IMG/VR virus record: IMGVR_UViG_3300020166_000052
Location: 1-36,678 of that record
Reading direction: 5' to 3' (one strand)
DNA from: a virus
Length of the DNA: 36,678 nt
The translations under genes were made by a program, and so were the position numbers. Below are positions 1,918 through 36,487 of this stretch, piece by piece; position 1 is the first letter of the stretch, and every line of letters starts with the position of its first letter. The notes under the pieces are model-generated. The model saw nothing but the letters and a program-made list of their open reading frames with translations. It searched no databases and was not told the origin of the DNA.

Positions 1918-3026
1918 TGGCAATACTAATCACAGCAGAACCCGAAGGGAATTTATTAACCACCTACAATAATACTATTATTGAATTCGGTACAAATGTA
2001 GGCAATCCATCAAGAGCGACTATTATGGTCGGTACTTTTACTTTTGAAATAACACCTAACAAAGGCGTGTTTTACTTCAATTTAAAAGAAGTCGTGAAAG
2101 TAGTCAATAATGCTAATAATTTTACGGATAACGTTTCAGTCGATCTACCTTCAAGTTATTTGTTTCCAGACAATTCATTGTATAATGAAGTGAGCTTTAC
2201 AATCACAGTGTATAAAACAGATGGCACTTTTGAATCCCTTGTTAAAAAATACAACTACTCAAAGGGTGTGATTCAATTAGTGAGAAATAAATTCCTTCCA
2301 AGCGATGCAATTAGAATCCTGTCGCCATCCAAAGACTTAAATTCACACCTAACGTACTTTGAAGGACTACCATTTGATTTATCAATTTATAGTGACGCAG
2401 CGAGAACCGTCACCATTACTAATAAGCGAACCTCTGGAGTTTTAATCATCCCACTTTCAAAAGGTGTCAATCGATTATTCCTTTCAAATGGTGAAAATGA
2501 TAACTTAGGGTTTGAGGGACAGCTTCCATTACATATAGGGATCAATGAATTAGAATTTTCTGGAGGTGGTGAACTCATCACTGTTTTTGTTAAAAAAGTA
2601 GCCGTAGCCTGTGGTGCGTATTTAAAATGGTTCAATCAGAACGGGGCGTGGTCTTATTGGCGGTGTTCACCAATCTATCAAGAAGACATCAAAACAAAAC
2701 ACTTTAAAGAATTAAATAACGACTTTAAAAATATTGAAAACTCAAATGCTAGAGTAACTCAAACAGGAAAAACCGCAGAGAATTTCCTAAACCTAAAGAC
2801 GAATCAAATGACAGAACAAGAACGTTTTGTTGTAGCTCAAATATTCGCAAGCCCTAAAGTGTTTTATTACAATAATATAGCATTACAACCATTTGAATTA
2901 CTAGACTGGATTGAATGCAGTTTAGGTTCTGTAACAAAAGAAGTTGACAACACCAAGAAAATTATTACCGAGTACGAAATCAAAATAGAATTACCAAAAA
3001 TATATACACAGGCTTATGCAGGTTGA
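1917..3026 (+). CDS. Putative tail structural protein
   Basis: A 369-aa beta-rich protein. The N-terminal half is a string of short strands (for example ATIMVGTFTFEITPNKGVF) suggesting an immunoglobulin-like or tail-tube-related fold. The centre has a Cys/Trp-rich part (CGAYLKWFNQNGAWSYWRC). The C-terminus ends in strands like those of distal-tail proteins. It lies between neck candidates and the 673-aa tail protein, and overlaps the latter by 11 bases. It is probably part of the tail tip or distal tail; the exact part is not shown by the sequence. Confidence 0.5.
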   Translation: MAILITAEPEGNLLTTYNNTIIEFGTNVGNPSRATIMVGTFTFEITPNKGVFYFNLKEVVKVVNNANNFTDNVSVDLPSSYLFPDNSLYNEVSFTITVYKTDGTFESLVKKYNYSKGVIQLVRNKFLPSDAIRILSPSKDLNSHLTYFEGLPFDLSIYSDAARTVTITNKRTSGVLIIPLSKGVNRLFLSNGENDNLGFEGQLPLHIGINELEFSGGGELITVFVKKVAVACGAYLKWFNQNGAWSYWRCSPIYQEDIKTKHFKELNNDFKNIENSNARVTQTGKTAENFLNLKTNQMTEQERFVVAQIFASPKVFYYNNIALQPFELLDWIECSLGSVTKEVDNTKKIITEYEIKIELPKIYTQAYAG

Positions 3027-12882: not shown

Positions 12883-14262
12883 ATGAAAAACTTTCGATCT
12901 GAATTCTTAAAAATATTTAATAAGACTGCGGATTACGACAAGAGTAAGGGAATTCATTTAAACGGGGTAGGTAATAACTATCCCGATTTTGTAGAAAGCA
13001 TTATCTCCGAATCCGTAACGGCGTCACGCTGTGCGAAATTAATGGCTGACTATATCTCTGGTAAAGGTTTTGAAGGGGACGCTAACAAGTTAATTGTCAA
13101 TGAATCTAAAGAGACTACGCTTTTAAAATTTACACAAAACATTGCGGAGTCTATCGCAGAACATAACGGCGTTTATATACACTGCAATTACAACGGAGAA
13201 TTCAATATAAAAAACATGGAAGTGTTGCCGTTTGCAGATTGCAGAGTAGGCAAAAAAGATGATGATGATTACTTCGGTAAAATATTAGTATGTGACGACT
13301 GGGGTGACGCAAAAAAAATAAAAAAAGCCACACCTATAGATGTTTATAATTCAAATAAAGAAGTAATTCAGAAACAAATTGAAGCGTCTAAAGGTATCAA
13401 TGATTATAACGGTCAAATTATGTACTTCCGATTCGGAAAATACACCTATCCACTAGCACCAATCCACCCCTGTTTAAAGGATGCAGAAAGTGAAACACAA
13501 GTTGCTGTTTATAAACACATTTCATTAAAAAAAGGTTTTTTTGGAAAAACCATAATAGCCACGAAGCCTTTAGTCGATGCCAATGTTGAAGATGATGAAT
13601 ACGAAACTCAAATCACACAAAGGGAGGCGTTTAAAACAACAATCAAAGAATTTATAGGAGCAGAAAATGCAGACGGTGTGCTTCATTTAGAAATGGACTT
13701 TGACAGTGAGAAGCTAAAAGATCAGTTAGTTTTTGAAAATATAAATAGTAATATAGATGACAAGCTTTTCGCACATACCGAAAATTCTGTGAGTGACAAC
13801 ATTCGTATGTGTTTCAACAATGTACCAGCAGCCTTAATCCGTTCACAAGACGGTAAGATATTCGGTACTTCTGGTAACGCAATCAAGGAAATGAAAATCT
13901 TCTACCAAGACCAAACTAAAGAGGAGCAGATGATTGTGGAAGAAATCATTAATAAACTGATGAAAAACTTTAAAAATCCACAAACAGATTTAAAAATAGT
14001 GCCTTTAATCGAAGAAACCCTAATTCCCACATCTATAACAAGCGGAGGCGACTCGCCTGAATTAGCTAAGAAAAAAGCACAAGCAACCTTAAAGGGATCA
14101 GTCGGTGGTGTCACTGCATTGCTACAAATTCAGCAAAGTGTGTCCGCAGGCACTACAGATAGAGATGCTGCGATTACTATTATAGAGGAAATATATGGCA
14201 TTGACAAAACACTTGCAAGCGAAATGCTAGGAACACCAAACAAAGAAGTAAATGTTAATTGA
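12883..14262 (+). CDS. Portal protein
   Basis: A 459-aa protein with the profile of a Bacteroidota phage portal: an N-terminal VESIISESVTASRCAKLMADYISGKGF segment (helix before the wing), strand-rich middle, a GKIFGTSGNAIKEMKIFYQDQTKEEQ stretch near residues 325-350 corresponding to the stem region, and a helical, Lys/Thr-rich C-terminus. It forms the dodecameric ring through which DNA enters and to which the neck attaches. It is unusual that it lies after the capsid gene and far from terL. It overlaps the connector gene by 11 bases. Confidence 0.75.
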   Translation: MKNFRSEFLKIFNKTADYDKSKGIHLNGVGNNYPDFVESIISESVTASRCAKLMADYISGKGFEGDANKLIVNESKETTLLKFTQNIAESIAEHNGVYIHCNYNGEFNIKNMEVLPFADCRVGKKDDDDYFGKILVCDDWGDAKKIKKATPIDVYNSNKEVIQKQIEASKGINDYNGQIMYFRFGKYTYPLAPIHPCLKDAESETQVAVYKHISLKKGFFGKTIIATKPLVDANVEDDEYETQITQREAFKTTIKEFIGAENADGVLHLEMDFDSEKLKDQLVFENINSNIDDKLFAHTENSVSDNIRMCFNNVPAALIRSQDGKIFGTSGNAIKEMKIFYQDQTKEEQMIVEEIINKLMKNFKNPQTDLKIVPLIEETLIPTSITSGGDSPELAKKKAQATLKGSVGGVTALLQIQQSVSAGTTDRDAAITIIEEIYGIDKTLASEMLGTPNKEVNVN

Positions 14263-21249: not shown

Positions 21250-21341
21250 GGTTGTCTTATATTTTAAAAAAACTGAAAAAATGAAAATATAAAATATTAT
21301 ATTTTTAAATAAAAATAATGGGGTTTTAAAAAATACAGATT

Positions 21342-21403
21342 ACCAACACCGTATAAGATTTCGTTGGCTTTTTTGCCAATGAATTTTATACAAGTACGTT
21401 ACC
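21342..21403. repeat. Imperfect inverted repeat A (attC-like shape)
   Basis: Arm 21342-21368 pairs with 21375-21403 across a T-rich 6-base loop. Paired blocks include GTATAA with TTATAC and CGTTGGC with GCCAATG (one G-T pair). The outer ends carry CCAAC and GTTACC, so the conserved AAC/GTT of attC sites is present. The structure is extensive and lies between facing genes, so a bidirectional terminator is an alternative. The rest of the 21250-21422 gap is AT-rich with no gene. Confidence 0.5.
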
Positions 21404-21422
21404 AAAAATAAAAAAGGGCGAC

Positions 21423-21905
21423 TTACTCAGTCGGCTTACTCTTGTATTTAAAGTAATCAATTGCTATATCTAAGTTTTGTATTCCTGTATGAGCAACTTT
21501 TACATACCCAAATCTTTTATCTACCCAGCTTTCGTAACTAATTCCTGCACCATATTCAAAAACAGGATTTAATATAAAAAAATAAGGGTCTTTAGTTTTA
21601 TCAAGCCAATCAAATACTTGTTTTTTGTTTTTGTAAAAATCGTTTTTAGCTAATTCTAATTCTCGTTCTTCACTTGAAAAGTGTCTTTTATTTAAAATTG
21701 CTCGTGTTCCAATTGTATCACTAAAATCAAGATGTTTTATTGTTTCGATTAACGCTTTGTTTTTTATATAATTAAATAATTGAAATCTTATAAAACTTCC
21801 TAAATAATTATAGTATTCAACACTATTTTCAATACATTTTTTTTTCGTATTTTCTTCAATCTTAAACCAAGTAGGTTCAATTTTATTAAAAGCTATTGCT
21901 TTCAT
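21423..21905 (-). CDS. Orphan accessory protein, reverse strand
   Basis: A 160-aa soluble protein (MKAIAFNKIEPTWFKIEEN at the start) with no recognised family. It is Phe/Tyr/Lys-rich with a central helical region and a C-terminal part with EYGAGISYESWVDKRFGY. It is on the opposite strand to its neighbours, bounded by inverted repeats A and B. That setting is typical of mobile cargo genes (defence, exclusion or toxin-type), but no such motif is seen. Confidence 0.5.
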   Translation of the reverse strand: MKAIAFNKIEPTWFKIEENTKKKCIENSVEYYNYLGSFIRFQLFNYIKNKALIETIKHLDFSDTIGTRAILNKRHFSSEERELELAKNDFYKNKKQVFDWLDKTKDPYFFILNPVFEYGAGISYESWVDKRFGYVKVAHTGIQNLDIAIDYFKYKSKPTE

Positions 21906-24015: not shown

Positions 24016-25152
24016 CTAGTACTTCAATAGCTTACTATAATCATCTGGAAGCTCCACATCATTAACTTGTATATAGCCATAGATAGCTTTACTCGTGTGA
24101 CCTGTGATTAAAGAAAGTGTACGCACCGTGTCCTCTTTAGAAAGCGTTTTCCTCAACTCAAGATAAATTTTAGTAATAAAAGTGTGTCGAAAATGGTACA
24201 AAGTAAATTGAGTCTCTATGTTGTTTTTCTTTCTAAACTTACCAAACTGTTTAGTATAAAAGCCACGCCTGTTAATTTCAGTAGTGTTATTCCAGTCTGC
24301 ATTGGAGGGTTCAAATATAAATCCGCTTTTATCTTTTACAAATTCTTTCAAGCGGTCCACTAAAATTGAAGGGATTATTTTTGTCTTTAAAGCTTTGGTT
24401 TTTGTGTCTATCTGAATTATGTTTTTGTCAAAGTCAATGTCACTCGTTTTCATTCTCACAATTTCGATAGGGCGCCAGAACATATACCCAACAAAATAGA
24501 TAAACATTAAAATAGCTTGATCCTGCTTTGTTAGTAATTCCACGATTTTATTAACATCATTTTCAGAATATACTTTAATAGGCTTTTTTAAAACTTTCTT
24601 ATTTCGTATCTCAGAAATAAAATTAAATTCGATATAACTTTCGTCAGATAATATACCGAATATAGAACTCAGCGCAATTTTACAGTTGTTTCTGTTTTTT
24701 GCACCAGTAAATTGATTTAAAAATTGAGACACCTCTCTCTTAGTGATAGCGGTAATTAATTCATGCAATTGACCCTTTGACTCTAAAAAGTGTTTAAACT
24801 GCTTAACACGGCTCTCATAATCTTTATAAGTTGTTTCTTTTACTTCTGATTTTTTAACAGAAAGAGCATAGTCTAAACAACTTTCTGCCGTATAGCCGTT
24901 CAACTGTGGGTTTTTTTTACCAAGGTCCCACTCGTTTTCTAAATAATAATTAATGAAATTCCTAATTTTGTTTAATTCTCGGAGCCTTTCGTCTTTTTTC
25001 TTGAACCGCCTGTTAACCTTAAAAGTAAGTGGCGTTTGCCGTTTCATTTTACCATCAGAACCTATAAGAGAGTAATAAACATACCATCGCTTCGAGAGGT
25101 CGTAATCTTTCCCCCCGTGGTATATTTTCGCTTCTATATAATTCTTAGTCAT
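24016..25152 (-). CDS. int: Tyrosine recombinase (phage integrase)
   Basis: A 378-aa protein from ATG 25152; the frame stays open to 25221. The shorter start is preferred because the extension is encoded by the arm repeat at 25167-25189, while MTKNYIEAKIYHGGKDY is a more usual start of the N-terminal arm-binding domain. The core SAM-like domain covers about residues 85-185. Catalytic residues in the C-terminal domain are Arg in FWRPIEIVRM, Lys in TKTKALKTK, Arg in YHFRHTF, His in TGHTSK and Tyr in YGYIQ. It integrates and excises the phage at attP directly next to it. It is a phage-type enzyme, not recognisably an integron integrase. Confidence 0.9.
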   Translation of the reverse strand: MTKNYIEAKIYHGGKDYDLSKRWYVYYSLIGSDGKMKRQTPLTFKVNRRFKKKDERLRELNKIRNFINYYLENEWDLGKKNPQLNGYTAESCLDYALSVKKSEVKETTYKDYESRVKQFKHFLESKGQLHELITAITKREVSQFLNQFTGAKNRNNCKIALSSIFGILSDESYIEFNFISEIRNKKVLKKPIKVYSENDVNKIVELLTKQDQAILMFIYFVGYMFWRPIEIVRMKTSDIDFDKNIIQIDTKTKALKTKIIPSILVDRLKEFVKDKSGFIFEPSNADWNNTTEINRRGFYTKQFGKFRKKNNIETQFTLYHFRHTFITKIYLELRKTLSKEDTVRTLSLITGHTSKAIYGYIQVNDVELPDDYSKLLKY

Positions 25153-25166
25153 GTTTTCCCTGTTAC

Positions 25167-25189
25167 TGTATGCGGTTTCGTATGCGGTA
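25167..25189. repeat. attP arm repeat (integrase side)
   Basis: A 23-bp sequence made of GTATGCGGTT and GTATGCGGTA joined by one C. It recurs exactly at 25384-25406 on the other side of the tRNA-like core. Paired direct repeats on both arms are typical of integrase arm-binding sites. Confidence 0.7.
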
Positions 25190-25258
25190 CGAATTTTTCC
25201 AATTAAAAAAGCCATTGACATTTAGAGTTAAACAACTGCAAATCAATGGCTTAAAATT

Positions 25259-25303
25259 GTAGCGAGAGCGGGGCACGATCCCGCGACCTCCGGGTTATGA
25301 ACC
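25259..25303 (-). other. attP: attP core: 3' part of tRNA-Met(CAT)
   Basis: On the reverse strand this is the 3' half of a tRNA: the loop TTCATAA with anticodon CAT, stem part CCCGG, variable AGGTC, T-stem GCGGG/CCCGC and acceptor end CTCTCGCTACA. The 5' half is missing, so it is not a tRNA gene but the piece of host tRNA that phages carry to rebuild the gene on integration. It lies between integrase and repressor with phage genes on both sides, so the window shows attP (free or circular form), not attL or attR. The T-loop reads ATCGTGC instead of the usual TTCRAnn. Confidence 0.75.
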
Positions 25304-25383
25304 AAAAAAAATCATCTCTCAAAAAGTTAAATCATTAATTGTCAGTTTGTTATGTTTTTAGTTTGTGTTAAAATAGTGCGTTT

Positions 25384-25406
25384 TGTATGCGGTTTCGTAT
25401 GCGGTA
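25384..25406. repeat. attP arm repeat (repressor side)
   Basis: An exact copy of the 23-bp unit at 25167-25189, in the same orientation, about 80 bases beyond the core. It also holds two GTATGCGGT half-sites. It lies just past the end of the lipoprotein gene. Confidence 0.7.
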
Positions 25407-25411
25407 GGGGT

Positions 25412-29571: not shown

Positions 29572-29997
29572 ATGAGTGTAGCAATCAAAAACAGAAACAA
29601 CGCTTATTTCGAAATTCTCAAAAAAGCACCTAAGAAATGCCAATTTATTTTGGAGTTAATAAAAGAGAATAAAGGTATCACAACTCAAGAGTTAAGCACA
29701 AAGTATGGGATTCGTATAAACAACGTGTCAGGACGTGTTACAGAGCTTGAAAAGATGTGTTTAATAAAAGCGGTAGGAAGTGCGAAGAGCTCTTTTACAA
29801 ATAAGTCTAACACTATTTACGTAGCAATCAAAGATACTGACGCAATAATCGATATGCGAAACCTAAAGGCTCAAGAATTGATAGATGAAAATGCAGCCTT
29901 AATTAATGACTTCATTTTATTGAAAAGCACGCTATCAAGAGTCATCCTAAACAACAGGATTAGAAAAAACAAAAAAGAATTAGCAATGGTTTCTTAA
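29572..29997 (+). CDS. Winged-HTH protein
   Basis: A 141-aa protein. Residues ~20-70 form a winged HTH (FILELIKENKGITTQELSTK; NNVSGRVTELEKMCLI) of the type used in MarR- or LexA-like regulators. The C-terminal half is helical with an acidic to basic end. It may control later genes of the operon or bind DNA in replication. The downstream gap begins a structured region. Confidence 0.6.
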   Translation: MSVAIKNRNNAYFEILKKAPKKCQFILELIKENKGITTQELSTKYGIRINNVSGRVTELEKMCLIKAVGSAKSSFTNKSNTIYVAIKDTDAIIDMRNLKAQELIDENAALINDFILLKSTLSRVILNNRIRKNKKELAMVS

Positions 29998-30046
29998 AAA
30001 TATAGAATTAGTGTTGGAACTAGTTTACAATAGGTGAGTTAGGTTT

Positions 30047-30096
30047 TTTGGTTGGGTAAAGTGGCACTGGTTATAGCCTTCCAGTGTCCAACCAAA
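30047..30096. repeat. Two-stem hairpin upstream of methyltransferase
   Basis: The outer stem is TTTGGTTGG with CCAACCAAA (9 bp, perfect). The inner stem is CACTGG with CCAGTG over a 10-base loop. The left side has an extra 9 bases between stems, the right only 1. This shape suits a structured RNA, a terminator without T-run, or an extrahelical-base recombination site. The 29998-30118 gap has no gene. Confidence 0.55.
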
Positions 30097-30118
30097 CCAA
30101 ATATTTGTAACGGATTAT

Positions 30119-30793
30119 ATGAAAGACATTGAATTAATACACGGAGATAGCTTACAAGCGTTAAAAGGCTATGGCGATAATTATTTTGATGTGGCTATTG
30201 TTGACCCTCCTTACGGGCTTGGTTTTGATGGTGAAGTGGCAAGTATGACAATAAGCCCGAATATGGGTAGCGAAAGAAAAAAGCGATGGAATGGAAAGAA
30301 AATAAACCAATACACAAAAAAGGACTGGGATAAAGAAGTACCATCTAAAGAATATTGGGATGAGCTTTTCCGAGTATCTAAAGATCAAATAGTATGGGGT
30401 GGAAATCATTTTGAATTACCACAAAGTAGAGGGTGGTTATTTTGGGATAAGAAAATGGATAAGGGTTTTTCTTTGGCTGATGGTGAACTTGCTTGGACTT
30501 CATTCGATAAAGGGGTAAAAAAATTTGAATACTTATGGGCGGGATTTAAAAAGAAAAAACCTATTAAAAGAATCCACCCGACACAAAAGCCAATAGATTT
30601 GTATAGGTTTTGTTTGGAACATTACACGAGCGAGGGTGATTTGATTTTAGATACTCACTTGGGTAGTGGAAGTATAGCTATAGCCTGCCACCAAATGAAA
30701 CGAAAACTAATAGCCTATGAGATAGATGCTGAATACTATGAAAAGGCTTGTAAGCGGTTTAAAGAACAAACTCGTCAAATAGCACTATGGTAG
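30119..30793 (+). CDS. DNA methyltransferase (adenine/cytosine-N, DPPY class)
   Basis: A 224-aa enzyme. The catalytic DPPY motif is at residues 29-32 (AIVDPPYGLGF). A target-recognition middle follows, then HPTQKP and LDTHLGSGSIAIAC (the SAM-binding loop, near 180-195) at the C-terminus. This order (DPPY first) is the beta-class. No restriction enzyme is nearby, so it is an orphan enzyme that would mark phage DNA against host restriction or affect packaging or replication. It lies between the two-stem hairpin and site G. Confidence 0.85.
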   Translation: MKDIELIHGDSLQALKGYGDNYFDVAIVDPPYGLGFDGEVASMTISPNMGSERKKRWNGKKINQYTKKDWDKEVPSKEYWDELFRVSKDQIVWGGNHFELPQSRGWLFWDKKMDKGFSLADGELAWTSFDKGVKKFEYLWAGFKKKKPIKRIHPTQKPIDLYRFCLEHYTSEGDLILDTHLGSGSIAIACHQMKRKLIAYEIDAEYYEKACKRFKEQTRQIALW

Positions 30794-30801
30794 TGTTTAT
30801 T

Positions 30802-30901
30802 GTTGCTAACGCATTGTGTATGTGTAGTAAGGCTATGCACGTACATTAAACCGAAGAACGAAAGTTAATTAGCCTTATTACATATACATTTGTTATGCAA
30901 C
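30802..30901. repeat. attC-like site G
   Basis: Arm 30802-30835 (starting GTTGCTAACG) pairs with 30868-30901 (ending GTTATGCAAC). Matching blocks are TAAC/GTTA, TGTATGT with ACATATACA, and TAAGGCTA with TAGCCTTA, with extra bases on one strand and a ~32-base internal region. It has an AAC-type left core, a GTTATGC right core and bulges, as attC sites do. The start codon of the next gene (30895) lies inside the right core. Confidence 0.6.
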
Positions 30902-31083
30902 GTAGATTTAAAGTAGGAGATAAAGTAGAAATAATTGGTAACATACCATTTCAATTAAAAGACAAGCCAAAGCCACTATTAGGAACTATAACGAACATAG
31001 ACGGTGCTTATATTTTAGTTAGACCAAAATACCAGAGACATGAATGTGAATTTTATAGTGGCGAATTGCGCTATGTTGCATAA
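30895..31083 (+). CDS. Small SH3/KOW-like protein filling a cassette unit
   Basis: A 62-aa protein. KVGDKVEIIGNIPF, GTITNIDGAYILVRPK and the C-terminal strand form a small SH3-like beta barrel of KOW type. Its ATG is inside the front core GTTATGCAAC (30892-30901) and its TAA inside the back end GTTGCATAAC (31075-31084), which is the exact complement. The coding region therefore fills the whole unit between two attC-like sites. Such barrels often bind nucleic acid; the role is unknown. Confidence 0.6.
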   Translation: MQRRFKVGDKVEIIGNIPFQLKDKPKPLLGTITNIDGAYILVRPKYQRHECEFYSGELRYVA

Positions 31084-31141
31084 CGTGTTGAATATGGTGT
31101 CGTAGTGAGGCACGAGCTATGCACTATATTTTGTGTTGTGC
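31075..31141. repeat. attC-like site H
   Basis: GCATAACGTGTTGAATATGGTG at the left pairs with the right arm 31117-31141 ending GTTGTGC. Matching blocks include GCA(T/C)AAC, AATAT, and ATAG at the inner end, with bulges. The first ten bases are the complement of the right core of site G. No gene lies in 31084-31176. Confidence 0.6.
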
Positions 31142-31176
31142 TTAGTGCGGATTATTAAACTAAAAACTTGATTAAA

Positions 31177-31518
31177 ATGAAAATAGTAAAAGGAGAATTT
31201 AAAGATACTGGAATCAATGAAATAGATATTGATTTAGTGGTAAGTAAGTGGAGTCATTTATGGATGCTTACAGAATGGCAAAGAGATAACTCTTGGAGAG
31301 TTGTAAAATACATTAGAAAAGATTCTGGAATAACTGAAATTAAACTAACAATATCTTGGCAACAAGCAAATGAGTTAGTTAAAAAACTTGATTTAAAACC
31401 TACAAATACAGGATTTAGAAGCGGTTACTCTTGGAGGACTGAAAAAGATATGATGCACCTTGACAATTGGAGACGTTTGAAATATACACCTTGTTGTAAA
31501 CTGTGCGAATTTAAATAG
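31177..31518 (+). CDS. Hypothetical early protein
   Basis: A 113-aa protein; the ATG at 31177 is used over the upstream TTG at 31168. It is strand-rich at the N-terminus (VKGEFKDTGINEIDIDLV) and Trp-rich (five or more Trp), ending in CCKLCEF with a Cys cluster. No known domain. It lies directly after site H but no matching complementary end is found downstream, so it is not shown to be a cassette. Confidence 0.5.
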   Translation: MKIVKGEFKDTGINEIDIDLVVSKWSHLWMLTEWQRDNSWRVVKYIRKDSGITEIKLTISWQQANELVKKLDLKPTNTGFRSGYSWRTEKDMMHLDNWRRLKYTPCCKLCEFK

Positions 31519-31525
31519 ATAAAAT

Positions 31526-31954
31526 ATGAAAAATAGAAACATACCTCATAAAGACGACTGGGCGACACCACCATGCTTTTATGATAAATTAAACGGTGAA
31601 TTTGATTTTAACTTTGATCCTTGCCCGTATCAGCACGATATTGAAAAATGGAACGGACTTGAAATTGAATGGAAAGAGCGAAATTTTATAAACCCACCTT
31701 ACAGCAGAAAGTTAAAAGATGCGTTTGTAATTAAGGCAATAGAAGAAAGTAAAAAAGGTAAACTTTGTGTGATGCTTTTACCTGTAAGTACAAGCACCCA
31801 ATTATTTCACAGACACATATTGCCGAACCAAAAAGAGATCCGCTTTATAGAAAAGAGAATAAAATTTTGCGGTGTTAATACAAAAGGTGAATATGTTACG
31901 GGCAAAGCTGGTATGCACGACTCAATGGTGGTGGTGTTTGATGGAAGAACGTAG
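31526..31954 (+). CDS. Phage N6-adenine methyltransferase (Dam, PF05869-like)
   Basis: A 142-aa enzyme. DDWATPPCFYDKLN at the start and FINPPYSRKL (the NPPY catalytic motif) are typical of the small phage Dam family that methylates adenine. LCVMLLPVSTSTQ and the C-terminal GMHDSMVVVF strand complete the fold. It has no restriction partner. With the DPPY enzyme at 30119 the phage has two orphan methyltransferases. Confidence 0.8.
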   Translation: MKNRNIPHKDDWATPPCFYDKLNGEFDFNFDPCPYQHDIEKWNGLEIEWKERNFINPPYSRKLKDAFVIKAIEESKKGKLCVMLLPVSTSTQLFHRHILPNQKEIRFIEKRIKFCGVNTKGEYVTGKAGMHDSMVVVFDGRT

Positions 31955-31977
31955 CATTGTTTACAACTAGGTATATG

Positions 31978-32035
31978 GAGAACAAACACCCTTTTTATAG
32001 GGGTATATCTCTGGATAATAGGAACTTTTGTTCTC
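31978..32035. repeat. Inverted repeat in gap before replication genes
   Basis: GAGAACAAA (31978-31986) and TTTGTTCTC (32027-32035) are perfect complements with a 40-base loop that itself has a CCC/GGGG pair. It lies in the 130-base gap between the Dam gene and the DnaA-like gene. It may be a terminator or leader hairpin; the rest of the gap is AT-rich. Confidence 0.45.
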
Positions 32036-32084
32036 ATTTATCATTTTAATAAAAATAATGTGCATCTATAAAAAAACTTAAATT

Positions 32085-32480
32085 ATGAAATCATTAAAAA
32101 CAATTATACAAACAATAAAAAAAGTGACGGGTGTGGATATAAAAAAAATAGAATCGAGTAAATCAAAAACAGAAATAGCAGATGCAATTCGTATCTATTG
32201 CTTAATAGCAACCACATTAACACAATATAATTATAGTGACATAGGAAGCTTATTTAAGCGATCCGGAACGGCTCAAAATCACAGCATGGTGGTTTACCAC
32301 AAAAAGAAGGGATTATTCTTCTTAGAAAAAGAAATAAGGTTTAAAAACATCTACAACAAATGTATGAAGGAGCTGCCTTACTTGAATGATGAAAATGAGT
32401 GTCTTAATAAAATAAAGTACCATAATAGGAAATTAAAAAAATATACATCAATACTGCAAAAATTAAGTAACAATGGCTAA
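32085..32480 (+). CDS. DnaA domain IV-like protein
   Basis: A 131-aa protein. Residues ~25-75 (TEIADAIRIYCLIATTLTQ; SDIGSLFKRSGTAQNHSMVV) resemble the C-terminal DNA-binding domain IV of DnaA: a helix with ADA.RIY, then a helix-turn-helix and an N-H-S-M-V helix like the DHSTV signature. No ATPase domain is present. It lies directly before the replication initiator gene (8-base overlap), so it may bind the phage origin or act as a replication regulator. Confidence 0.55.
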   Translation: MKSLKTIIQTIKKVTGVDIKKIESSKSKTEIADAIRIYCLIATTLTQYNYSDIGSLFKRSGTAQNHSMVVYHKKKGLFFLEKEIRFKNIYNKCMKELPYLNDENECLNKIKYHNRKLKKYTSILQKLSNNG

Positions 32481-33153
32481 AAATAACCTACCTCACATAC
32501 CTCTTTACATTGGCGATTGGGAAAAAGATTGTAACGTACTTTCATTAGAAAGCGAAGGAGCTTGGCTGAGAATCATCTTTAAAATGTTTTCAAAAGGAAA
32601 ACAAAGTACAATCAAAATCCCTACAAAATCCCTACAAAATTTATGGAGATGTTCTGCAGAAAGTGTGCAAGAAATTATAAATGATTTAATGTTCAACGAT
32701 ATATGCGACATAGATGTAGAAGGTAATTTCACGGAATTTACTTGTCGCCGTTTTGTAAAAGAAAACAAGCTTTCAAAAACACGAAGTGAAGCACGGAAAA
32801 AAGGATACGAGAAAAACAAAACAACTACAAAACCAAATCAAAATAAAAACAAAAAGCTACAAAACGCTGACAATGACAATGACAATGACAATGATATTGA
32901 TATTAACAATAACATTGATATTCCAAATAAAAAAGAGTTTTTAGAATTTGCAAAATCAAAAATTGAAAATATCGACCTGGAAGATGTGGGCCTAAAATAC
33001 GAAGCATGGAAATCTAGTGATTGGCATACGGGCGGTGATAAACCTCGAAAGATTAAGAATTGGAAAACAACGCTGTTAAACACCTTGCCTCATCTGAAAA
33101 AAACAACCGTAAAAAAAACAGGAAAACTTAACGCATATAATCCGAACAAATGA
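32473..33153 (+). CDS. Replication protein with internal repeats (O-like)
   Basis: A 226-aa protein. The N-terminal ~100 residues (HIPLYIGDWEKDCNVLSLES) fit a DUF1376-like winged helix of phage replication initiators. A low-complexity acidic stretch with Asp/Asn repeats (~132-150) is followed by a C-terminal FLEFAKSK...KYEAW..SDW domain as in helicase-loading proteins. It lies upstream of a DnaC-like loader, the lambda O-P arrangement. The repeat stretch also gives a run of DNA repeats within the gene. Start and end overlap both neighbours. Confidence 0.7.
   Translation: MAKNNLPHIPLYIGDWEKDCNVLSLESEGAWLRIIFKMFSKGKQSTIKIPTKSLQNLWRCSAESVQEIINDLMFNDICDIDVEGNFTEFTCRRFVKENKLSKTRSEARKKGYEKNKTTTKPNQNKNKKLQNADNDNDNDNDIDINNNIDIPNKKEFLEFAKSKIENIDLEDVGLKYEAWKSSDWHTGGDKPRKIKNWKTTLLNTLPHLKKTTVKKTGKLNAYNPNK
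32869..32922. repeat. Hexamer repeat array within replication gene (possible origin)
   Basis: Nine adjoining hexamers of the form (G/A)A(C/T)A(A/T)T: GACAAT four times, GATATT twice, AACAAT, AACATT, GATATT. It codes for the Asp/Asn stretch. Repeats inside the initiator gene recall the lambda origin within O, so an iteron-like origin is possible; plain low-complexity coding sequence is the alternative. Confidence 0.45.
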
Positions 33154-33905
33154 TTTCAACTAGAAAATACAGACTTCTAAAGCGATTCAAGGGAACTCTA
33201 ACAGATGATCAGAACACTCAAATATCCGAGTATGAAAACTCCGCAATCTCTGTAAAATTTAGCGAACCAGAGCCAGAAAAAGTTCCATTATCAAAACTTC
33301 CTTTCGGTTGGTTGCAGAAAATGTTCATCAAATGTTGGAAAATAAACGAAGGAAAAGATTTAATTTTCACAGAATCCACGAAACCAATTTACAGAGCTTT
33401 GACTCATTATTTTGCAAAGAGTGAAAATTTTAAAAACACGAATATTACCACAAACATCCCTGATCTTAAAAAAGGGCTTTTAATTATTGGCGATTATGGA
33501 TGCGGCAAAACATCAATGCTAAGAGCTTTTCAAATGGTGGGCAAGGCACTGTTGCCAGATCCGATACTTTGGTTTAATAACGTGTCCTGCAACGCTTTGG
33601 TAATGGAGTTTGAAGGCATGGACACGAACGATAAGTCGGCAAAGAAACATTTCTTTCAAAAATACAACAAAGCTGCTGTAATGTATTTTGATGATTTTGG
33701 CACGGAGTCGAACGCTTCTAATTTTGGAATTAAAAACTTAATGAAAGACATTCTAGAAGAAAGGTATTCTAATAATAAACGAACATTTTTAACAAGTAAT
33801 TTATCCCTACCAGAAATTCAAGAAAAGTACGGAGACAGGGTGTATGACCGACTTCAAGAGATGTTTAACATAATTGAAATGCCAGGCGAAAGTTATAGAA
33901 AATAG
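33150..33905 (+). CDS. DnaC-type helicase loader (AAA+ ATPase)
   Basis: A 251-aa protein. Walker A is GDYGCGKTS (~114-122), Walker B is VMYFDDFGTES (Asp181/182), and a sensor region TFLTSNLSLPEIQEKYGDRV follows. The C-terminal DRLQEMFNIIEMPGESYR holds the arginine finger area. DnaC-like ATPases load the host or phage helicase at the origin. It follows the initiator gene with a 4-base overlap. Confidence 0.8.
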   Translation: MISTRKYRLLKRFKGTLTDDQNTQISEYENSAISVKFSEPEPEKVPLSKLPFGWLQKMFIKCWKINEGKDLIFTESTKPIYRALTHYFAKSENFKNTNITTNIPDLKKGLLIIGDYGCGKTSMLRAFQMVGKALLPDPILWFNNVSCNALVMEFEGMDTNDKSAKKHFFQKYNKAAVMYFDDFGTESNASNFGIKNLMKDILEERYSNNKRTFLTSNLSLPEIQEKYGDRVYDRLQEMFNIIEMPGESYRK

Positions 33906-36091: not shown

Positions 36092-36487
36092 GTGGACGTA
36101 ACATCAAGATATTTAAATAAGAACTTAGCGCAACTCAAAAAAATTGCAGTTAGACACTTCCATCTGTTTGTCAGAAATAGAGACAAGGATCAGCCCTGCA
36201 TATCCTGTGGACGCTACACAACCCTCCAGGCAGGTCACTACTTCAGCGCAGGACTTCACCCTCTTTTAAAATTTGAAGAAGATAATGTAAACGGACAATG
36301 TGTTCAATGCAATTACTTCAATCATGGAAATGAATCTATGTACGCTATTGCTTTGAGAAAAAAGATAGGAGCAGAGCGCTTTGAAAAACTAAACCTAAAA
36401 CACGCAATGGGGAAACGAACCAAATTTAAATGGGATAGATTTTCGTTAATTGAAATTATTGAAAAATACAAATCCTTAAATAAATGA
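36092..36487 (+). CDS. ninG: NinG/Rap recombination protein
   Basis: A 131-aa protein with a GTG start. Zinc-type residues are C36 and C39 (PCISCGRY), H49 (QAGHYFSAG), C70 and C73 (GQCVQCNYF) and H78 (NHGN), as in lambda NinG/Rap and HNH-like nucleases. NinG is a Holliday-junction or branched-DNA nuclease that helps recombination. It lies at the end of the early block, shortly before the terminase, and overlaps the next gene by 4 bases. Confidence 0.75.
   Translation: MDVTSRYLNKNLAQLKKIAVRHFHLFVRNRDKDQPCISCGRYTTLQAGHYFSAGLHPLLKFEEDNVNGQCVQCNYFNHGNESMYAIALRKKIGAERFEKLNLKHAMGKRTKFKWDRFSLIEIIEKYKSLNK

Follow-up and report, generated by a model that had tools for sequence, protein, structure and literature searches.

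The window analysed here (36,678 bases, the entire virus record) is, by its gene content, a temperate tailed phage of Bacteroidota type. All relatives of its portal gene (12883-14262) come from Bacteroides, Flavobacterium and similar phages, its helicase loader (33150-33905) is closest to a flavobacterial phage version, and a phage integrase is encoded at 24016-25221. The stretch beside the integrase gene (25222-25411) resembles the 3′ part of a tRNA gene and may contain an attP core. At 36092-36487, the translation, judged by eye, looks like a NinG/Rap-type recombination endonuclease; the annotations of the array-bearing muminphages and of the P12002 phages, discussed below, include an endonuclease of this type.

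Between two DNA methyltransferase genes of this phage lies a 62-codon ORF with unusual ends. A sequence-only reading of the locus had claimed that the ORF is bounded by exact inverted complements that contain its start and stop codons, and direct reading bears this out to the letter: GTTATGCAAC at 30892-30901 and GTTGCATAAC at 31075-31084 are exact inverses over 10 bp, and the extended arms match at 13 of 14 nt. The features of the locus are as follows.

30119-30793, + strand: N6_N4 DNA methyltransferase gene of the preceding cassette, which ends at the left core of site G
30799-30810, + strand: left core of site G, ATTGTTGCTAAC, the end of the preceding methyltransferase cassette; fits the class motif (A/C)T-N7-AAC
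30811-30891, + strand: hairpin G, with a 5-nt 5′ spacer, a stem of about 19 bp, an open loop and a short 3′ spacer (fold, detector and covariance model)
30892-30903, + strand: right core of site G, GTTATGCAACGT, which holds the start codon; class motif GTT-N7-GT
30895-31083, + strand: cassette ORF, 62 aa, with its ATG and TAA inside the inverse ends
31073-31084, + strand: left core of site H, ATGTTGCATAAC, with the stop codon inside it; inverse to the right core of G over 10 bp
30811-31084, + strand: predicted mobile unit of 274 bp (hairpin G, GTTATGCAAC core, ORF, GTTGCATAAC core), from own-end complementarity and the crossover position in relatives
31085-31134, + strand: hairpin H, ranked first in the window by the covariance model (E 0.011)
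31135-31146, + strand: right core of site H, GTTGTGCTTAGT, which begins the next cassette
31178-31518, + strand: 116-aa ORF, start of the third cassette (31168 TTG in the ORF list, ATG at 31178)
31526-31954, + strand: Dam-type DNA adenine methyltransferase gene, at the array end
31956-31978, + strand: putative fixed array end, attI-like, ATTGTTTACAAC followed by TAGGTATATGG; an AAC core without a hairpin of the class after it

The 62-aa product is perhaps SH3/KOW-like; it has no match in Pfam, PHROG or NCBIfam. Relatives of the gene were found in two phage contigs, one Sphingobacteriaceae prophage and one contig labelled Woesearchaeota, and flanking sites of the class are absent around them. 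Since these relatives stand outside such arrays, the gene itself is a general phage gene that is in a cassette here by happenstance. The 116-aa ORF has no database match. The start core of the preceding N6_N4 methyltransferase cassette is not recognisable in the window, and matching own ends are absent from the window cassettes both before and after the 62-codon cassette. A hairpin upstream of the methyltransferase gene (30018-30116) was considered and is not of this class.

Folding and covariation of the two sites

The long, bulged inverted repeats with AAC and GTT cores that had been described on either side of the gene both fold as proposed. In site G, the arms pair as GTTGC-TAAC/GTTA-T-GCAAC, followed by a spacer, a 19-bp stem and an open loop. 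This fold has -16.1 kcal/mol and a z of -3.0, and a single one of 200 shuffles did as well. In site H, GCATAACG pairs with TGTTGTGC, followed by a spacer and a bulged stem, with a z of only -1.0. A purpose-made detector gave site G a score of 30.4, where none of 150 window shuffles reached 30 and two reached 25; site H scored 19.0, and about 2.2 such scores occur per shuffled window. Thus, site G stands out from its shuffles, whereas site H, with its z of -1.0 and a detector score common in shuffles, is not significant by fold alone. The complementarity of the cassette's own ends, which had been read as the mark of a cassette, is indeed present, but is not improbable by itself: exact 10-bp GTT..AAC inverse pairs 100-1500 nt apart occur 2.8 times per shuffled window. 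With inverse ends arising about three times by chance and H weak on its own, testing on relatives was needed.

A covariance model was built from an alignment of 19 sites, none of them from the window. The alignment contained 58 double-change cells compared to 19.3 when shuffled (0 of 500 shuffles as high), and the covariation signal was gone when pairing partners were slid by one column. Across all 36.7 kb of the window, H was the top hit of the model (E 0.011) and G the third (E 0.29), adjacent and on the same strand; in the arrays of other phages, some of whose sites were in the model themselves or as close copies, E-values went down to 1e-12. No Rfam family fits the hairpins, and no intrinsic terminator (a G+C-rich stem followed by a T run) is present in 29950-32100. 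The suggestion that the repeats might belong to a terminator family can therefore be set aside; they are covarying hairpins with integron-type cores, and not a known RNA family. Extra-helical bases, a possible marker of polarity, are mixed between the two arms, and we make no claim about polarity from them.

It is scarcely credible that the locus is an ordinary phage gene in a fortuitous inverted repeat between two unrelated hairpins. Such a coincidence would fit the 2.8 ten-bp inverse pairs expected in the window and the lack of significance of H by fold, but not the score of G far above its shuffles, the presence of both sites in the top three of an independent model, or the class flanks, since the wider motifs (ATN7AAC, GTTN7GT and a G after AAC) are all obeyed at the window sites. 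The combination of inverse cores placed at the hairpin edges, together with the independent covariance model, is beyond chance.

The fourth hit of the covariance search (E 0.45) is a solitary hairpin of the class at 21339-21406 on the - strand, which reads TTGGTAAC, GTACTTGTATA...TTATACGGT, GTTGGTAA, with the core boundaries at the commas, and is near the Polaribacter phage type. It lies after the gene at 21423-21905, for which no matching start core was found.

Similar sites in other phages and in chromosomes

The methyltransferase gene that precedes site G led to Flavobacterium and Polaribacter phages, whose arrays have the same kind of hairpin between methyltransferases and small genes of unknown function. 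The core motifs AT-N7-AAC before the hairpin and GTT-N7-GT after it, as well as the G after AAC, are common to the window and these relatives. In the Flavobacterium phage arrays, the own ends of nearly every gene are exact 10-bp inverses, whereas the two cores of one hairpin match over 4-5 bp only. The window cassette shows the same relationship, with 10 bp between its own ends and 3-4 bp between the two cores of one hairpin.

Complementary own ends were found in 43 of 135 viral loci, 29 of them with two or more cassettes (some of these viral contigs may be host DNA), and in Bacteroidia genomes too; over phage, viral and chromosomal arrays together, most have own ends of 8-10 bp. A pattern scan also found one uncultured viral contig in which GTTATGCAACGT, the end core seen in the window, surrounds another gene. 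Bacteroidia chromosomes contain arrays as well, one of them over about 35 kb. Both origins that the sequence-only reading had envisaged for the cassette, a phage-borne system or capture from a host array, thus have counterparts in nature in the form of phage platforms and chromosomal arrays. The cassette variation that it had looked for exists too: in phages related in kind, the stretch between the same sites holds other genes or no gene.

Three further loci are worth recording. A many-cassette chromosomal array extends up to a convergent recombinase at about 110-145 kb of one Bacteroidia contig (G195:C1; loci L212, L208 and L211). The cultured Flavobacterium phage 11b (L011) has a small array of three class sites in a row at 2101-2771 (+ strand). 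The oyster-associated phage PQ867841 (L012, Zobellviridae), which belongs to a different group from the Flavobacterium array phages, has at about 2007-2081 a stretch of 75 bp, without an annotated gene, that shares 96% identity with a portion of a Flavobacterium phage array.

No close relative of the window phage was found in INPHARED (megablast, tblastn), and no syntenic locus was found via the downstream DnaA-like gene and the 116-aa gene. Mobility of the 62-codon cassette itself is therefore something that we infer, as no close relative with an empty site was found.

Cassette differences between isolates lie at or just after the AAC core

Exact cassette indels were seen in two sets of genomes: 14 muminphage isolates, whose backbones are almost the same, and the Polaribacter phages P12002L and P12002S. 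These comparisons, which do not distinguish gain from loss, gave 23 junction classes (not all independent) with one or more extra cassettes in one genome. The sequence shared by the empty and filled versions contains the AAC core of the upstream gene in 20 of the 23 classes, and starts 4-14 nt downstream, within the hairpin arm, in the other 3. None of the 23 has its junction at the GTTRRRY core. Several junctions share just 5-8 bases, and some sit at the array end, with no hairpin after them.

The Polaribacter phage Freya provides the clearest natural illustration. Four isolates from one host (Freya_1, 6, 10 and 8; our loci L242-L245) have the same backbone gene for gene, with cassettes that differ by 0, 2.2, 4.0 and 4.9 kb. 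Differences between isolates amount to 0.9-4.9 kb of cassettes, which are inserted between CAAC and ACCCCTATAACAAC; from there it is 46 bp to the ATG of a recombinase gene that belongs to the phage itself and to the family described in the next section. In one comparison the junction shares CAAC only. The integrase was taken as a sign of a temperate lifestyle in the Freya paper (Bartlau et al. 2021, PMC8776804); our data suggest that it shuffles cassettes, instead of or besides integrating the phage. Neither this paper nor that on the muminphages (PMC7077304) mentions integrons or cassettes.

As junctions fall at or just after the AAC core, the moving unit consists of a hairpin, a GTT core, a gene and an AAC core. 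Applied to the window, the crossover of relatives at the gene-end core predicts that hairpin G moves with the 62-codon gene, rather than the gene with hairpin H. For several cassettes, the loop of the upstream hairpin apparently contains the ribosome-binding region together with the start codon, and a mobile unit of this composition would therefore bring its own translation start.

We considered whether ordinary phage mosaicism could account for these exchanges, with the hairpins acting as transcript or replication elements and homologous or annealing recombination via similar hairpins swapping the genes between them. Phages of the group do have RecT- and NinB-like recombination genes, and hairpins are alike within a phage group. 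However, the junctions share as little as 4-8 bp (CAAC, ATAAC, TAACGTT) and always fall at the same core, even at array ends that lack a hairpin; hybrid hairpins are seen in a few cases at most. Annealing also leaves unexplained why own ends match over 10 bp and the cores of neighbouring hairpins over 4-5 bp, and the hairpins have no terminator signature. We consider this explanation very unlikely.

The junctions also bear on the integron-type cassette that the sequence-only reading had proposed. The classical form of that idea, in which a cassette with a classical attC was acquired from an array of the host and owes its movement to a canonical IntI cutting GTTRRRY on the gene-antisense strand, agrees with the cores, the spacers and the own-end complementarity, all as in attC. 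IntI1 recombines a site of Polaribacter phage P12002L into attI1 (Qi et al. 2023, PMC9892861), and P12002L is among the phage arrays studied here. In classical integrons, however, recombination occurs at the R′ core only (PMC2727003), and it is the hairpin after the gene that moves; the relatives have their junctions at the AAC core that precedes the hairpin, or shortly beyond it, and none at GTTRRRY. Taken together with the recombinases described in the next section, this makes a classical cassette improbable. The integron-type character of the cassette is supported, but not as a classical attC/IntI pair.

A recombinase without the IntI-specific insert adjoins the arrays

A tyrosine recombinase of about 350-550 aa was found in 9 of 9 array-bearing Bacteroidia genomes examined. 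Its match to the IntI model (TIGR02249) is split in two, and the IntI-specific insert is absent; XerA-like enzymes and IntI4 are its nearest solved structures, the IntI4 match again being in two pieces. The chromosomal recombinases have an extra N-terminal domain and match NCBIfam NF040815, in one case at 225.5 bits for a cut-off of 220. Branches in the recombinase tree are long, and the placement of IntI relative to the family is not fixed. The annotated integrases of Cellulophaga phage Ingeline and Polaribacter phage Leef (H130-H140) are relatives, at 35-38% identity, of an array-side phage recombinase.

Chromosomal arrays usually run towards a convergent recombinase, and in 9 genomes the last cassette ends 96-110 bp from the recombinase stop codon, at a conserved AAC followed by T..TTATA. 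Of 11 loci picked solely for their recombinase score and with a flank of no less than about 1.4 kb, 8 had hairpins on the array side. The family is present in 202 of 395 Bacteroidia genomes. It occurs in 39 of the 50 with a strict site pattern and in 163 of the 345 without, and is thus enriched with, but not exclusive to, the pattern. Recombinase genes often lie about 100-130 bp from a contig end (e.g. G084:C19, G325:C5, G144:C21, G214:C6), as would be expected if assemblies break in the repetitive adjoining array. Canonical IntI above cut-off was found in 1 of 295 Bacteroidia genomes (G143), with no array beside it. The scarcity of IntI, and the presence of the insert-less recombinase instead in array-bearing genomes, both argue against a classical cassette.

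Phages encode recombinases of this family in some cases, namely Freya and some uncultured phages; the insert-less enzyme is absent from the Flavobacterium phages read. In three uncultured phage contigs (L043, L064 and L092), shorter recombinases have their ATG 44-53 bp downstream of the array end; L092 and a further contig, L139, contain phage replication genes.

The window itself has two sites 274 bp apart by the covariance model built here, and no IntI. This agrees with the initial reading, which had seen no IntI: the phage's own integrase reaches only 32.9 bits for a cut-off of 265. No recombinase of the insert-less family is encoded in the window either. Its array end consists of ATTGTTTACAAC (31956-31967), a 12-mer identical to the empty-site core of Freya_1, followed by TAGGTATATGG. 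Comparison with the AAC, T..TTATA ends beside chromosomal and phage recombinases is only suggestive, but would make it attI-like.

Discussion

The 62-codon ORF is very probably one cassette of a short integron-like array in a temperate Bacteroidota phage, moved by an insert-less recombinase supplied in trans. In the mechanism that we propose, the gene-sense single strand would fold at each junction to give a hairpin between AAC and GTT cores. A candidate tyrosine recombinase, related to IntI and archaeal XerA but without the IntI-specific insert, would cut beside this hairpin, either between AA and C or directly after AAC. The cassette (hairpin, GTT core, gene, AAC core) would then leave as a circle, in which its own ends could pair perfectly over 10 bp, and this circle would enter either a different AAC core or the fixed end of an array. 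Since the window encodes no such enzyme, the simplest view is that the host or a co-resident phage would provide it.

The likely benefit of such a system would be the exchange of DNA methyltransferases and small genes that guard the phage against host restriction. Methyltransferase cargo recurs, with two genes in the window and others in the muminphages and P12002L. Nilsson et al. (2020, PMC7077304) reported that muminphages that plated poorly on strain LMO6 lacked a particular methyltransferase, and regrew two phages, morran9-1 and lillamy9-1, on this strain. We found that an AXF38279-like methyltransferase cassette is absent in morran9-1 and lillamy9-1 and present in hemulen6-1, snork6-1, mumin6-3 and tooticki6-1, all isolated on LMO6; snusmum6-1, also isolated on LMO6, is without this cassette and has another methyltransferase.

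Integrons are the best-known natural platform for gene capture, and their definition rests on a special domain of the integrase and on a fixed side of crossover. The arrays that we describe in Bacteroidota and their phages probably form an integron class of their own, one whose polarity is inverted. The gene-sense strand would be the one that recombines; the hairpin, often with the ribosome-binding site, would lie upstream of the gene; and the enzyme would be an IntI/XerA-like recombinase without the domain supposed to be required to recombine folded sites. The class would comprise both chromosomal arrays of tens of kb and self-contained phage platforms that shuffle anti-restriction genes. If this is true, cassette recombination at folded sites has more than one form, by separate origin or by later evolution; a major phylum contains more cassettes than searches based on classical models report; and there is an explanation for how flavobacterial phages swap methyltransferases, which determine the host strains open to them.

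That phages can carry cassettes was already known, since Qi et al. (2023, PMC9892861) reported phage attC arrays, including that of P12002L, which contains sites of the class found here. The window resembles their CALINs (clusters of two or more attC sites within 4 kb, with no intI) in having attC-like sites around methyltransferase genes in a flavobacterial type of phage without IntI. Working with classical attC models, they noted divergent site directions in P12002L; they did not report a crossover side, a fixed end or a recombinase of this kind. The muminphages (PMC7077304) and Freya (PMC8776804) are known phages in which we found the cassette indels. Archaeal XerA is among the proteins under the family name of NF040815 (site-specific tyrosine recombinase/integron integrase, XerA type), and the model implies no link to cassette arrays. 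In the searchable open literature, outside which lie many subscription papers and preprints, neither the inverted crossover side nor the fixed end turned up, and the insert-less recombinase was nowhere described as the enzyme of a cassette platform.

Compared to classical IntI integrons, the arrays have in common the complementary cassette ends, the AAC and GTT cores, an unpaired spacer with a G after AAC, a folded single-strand site with a free loop, and a content of mostly unknown small genes and methyltransferases. Relatives also share the fixed end beside a tyrosine recombinase, while the window has an attI-like end without one. They differ in that crossover in the relatives occurs at the gene-end AAC core, so that the upstream hairpin moves with the gene, and in that genes point towards the chromosomal recombinase and own ends match over about 10 bp. 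Finally, the recombinase lacks the insert specific to IntI and, in its chromosomal form, has an additional domain at the N-terminus.
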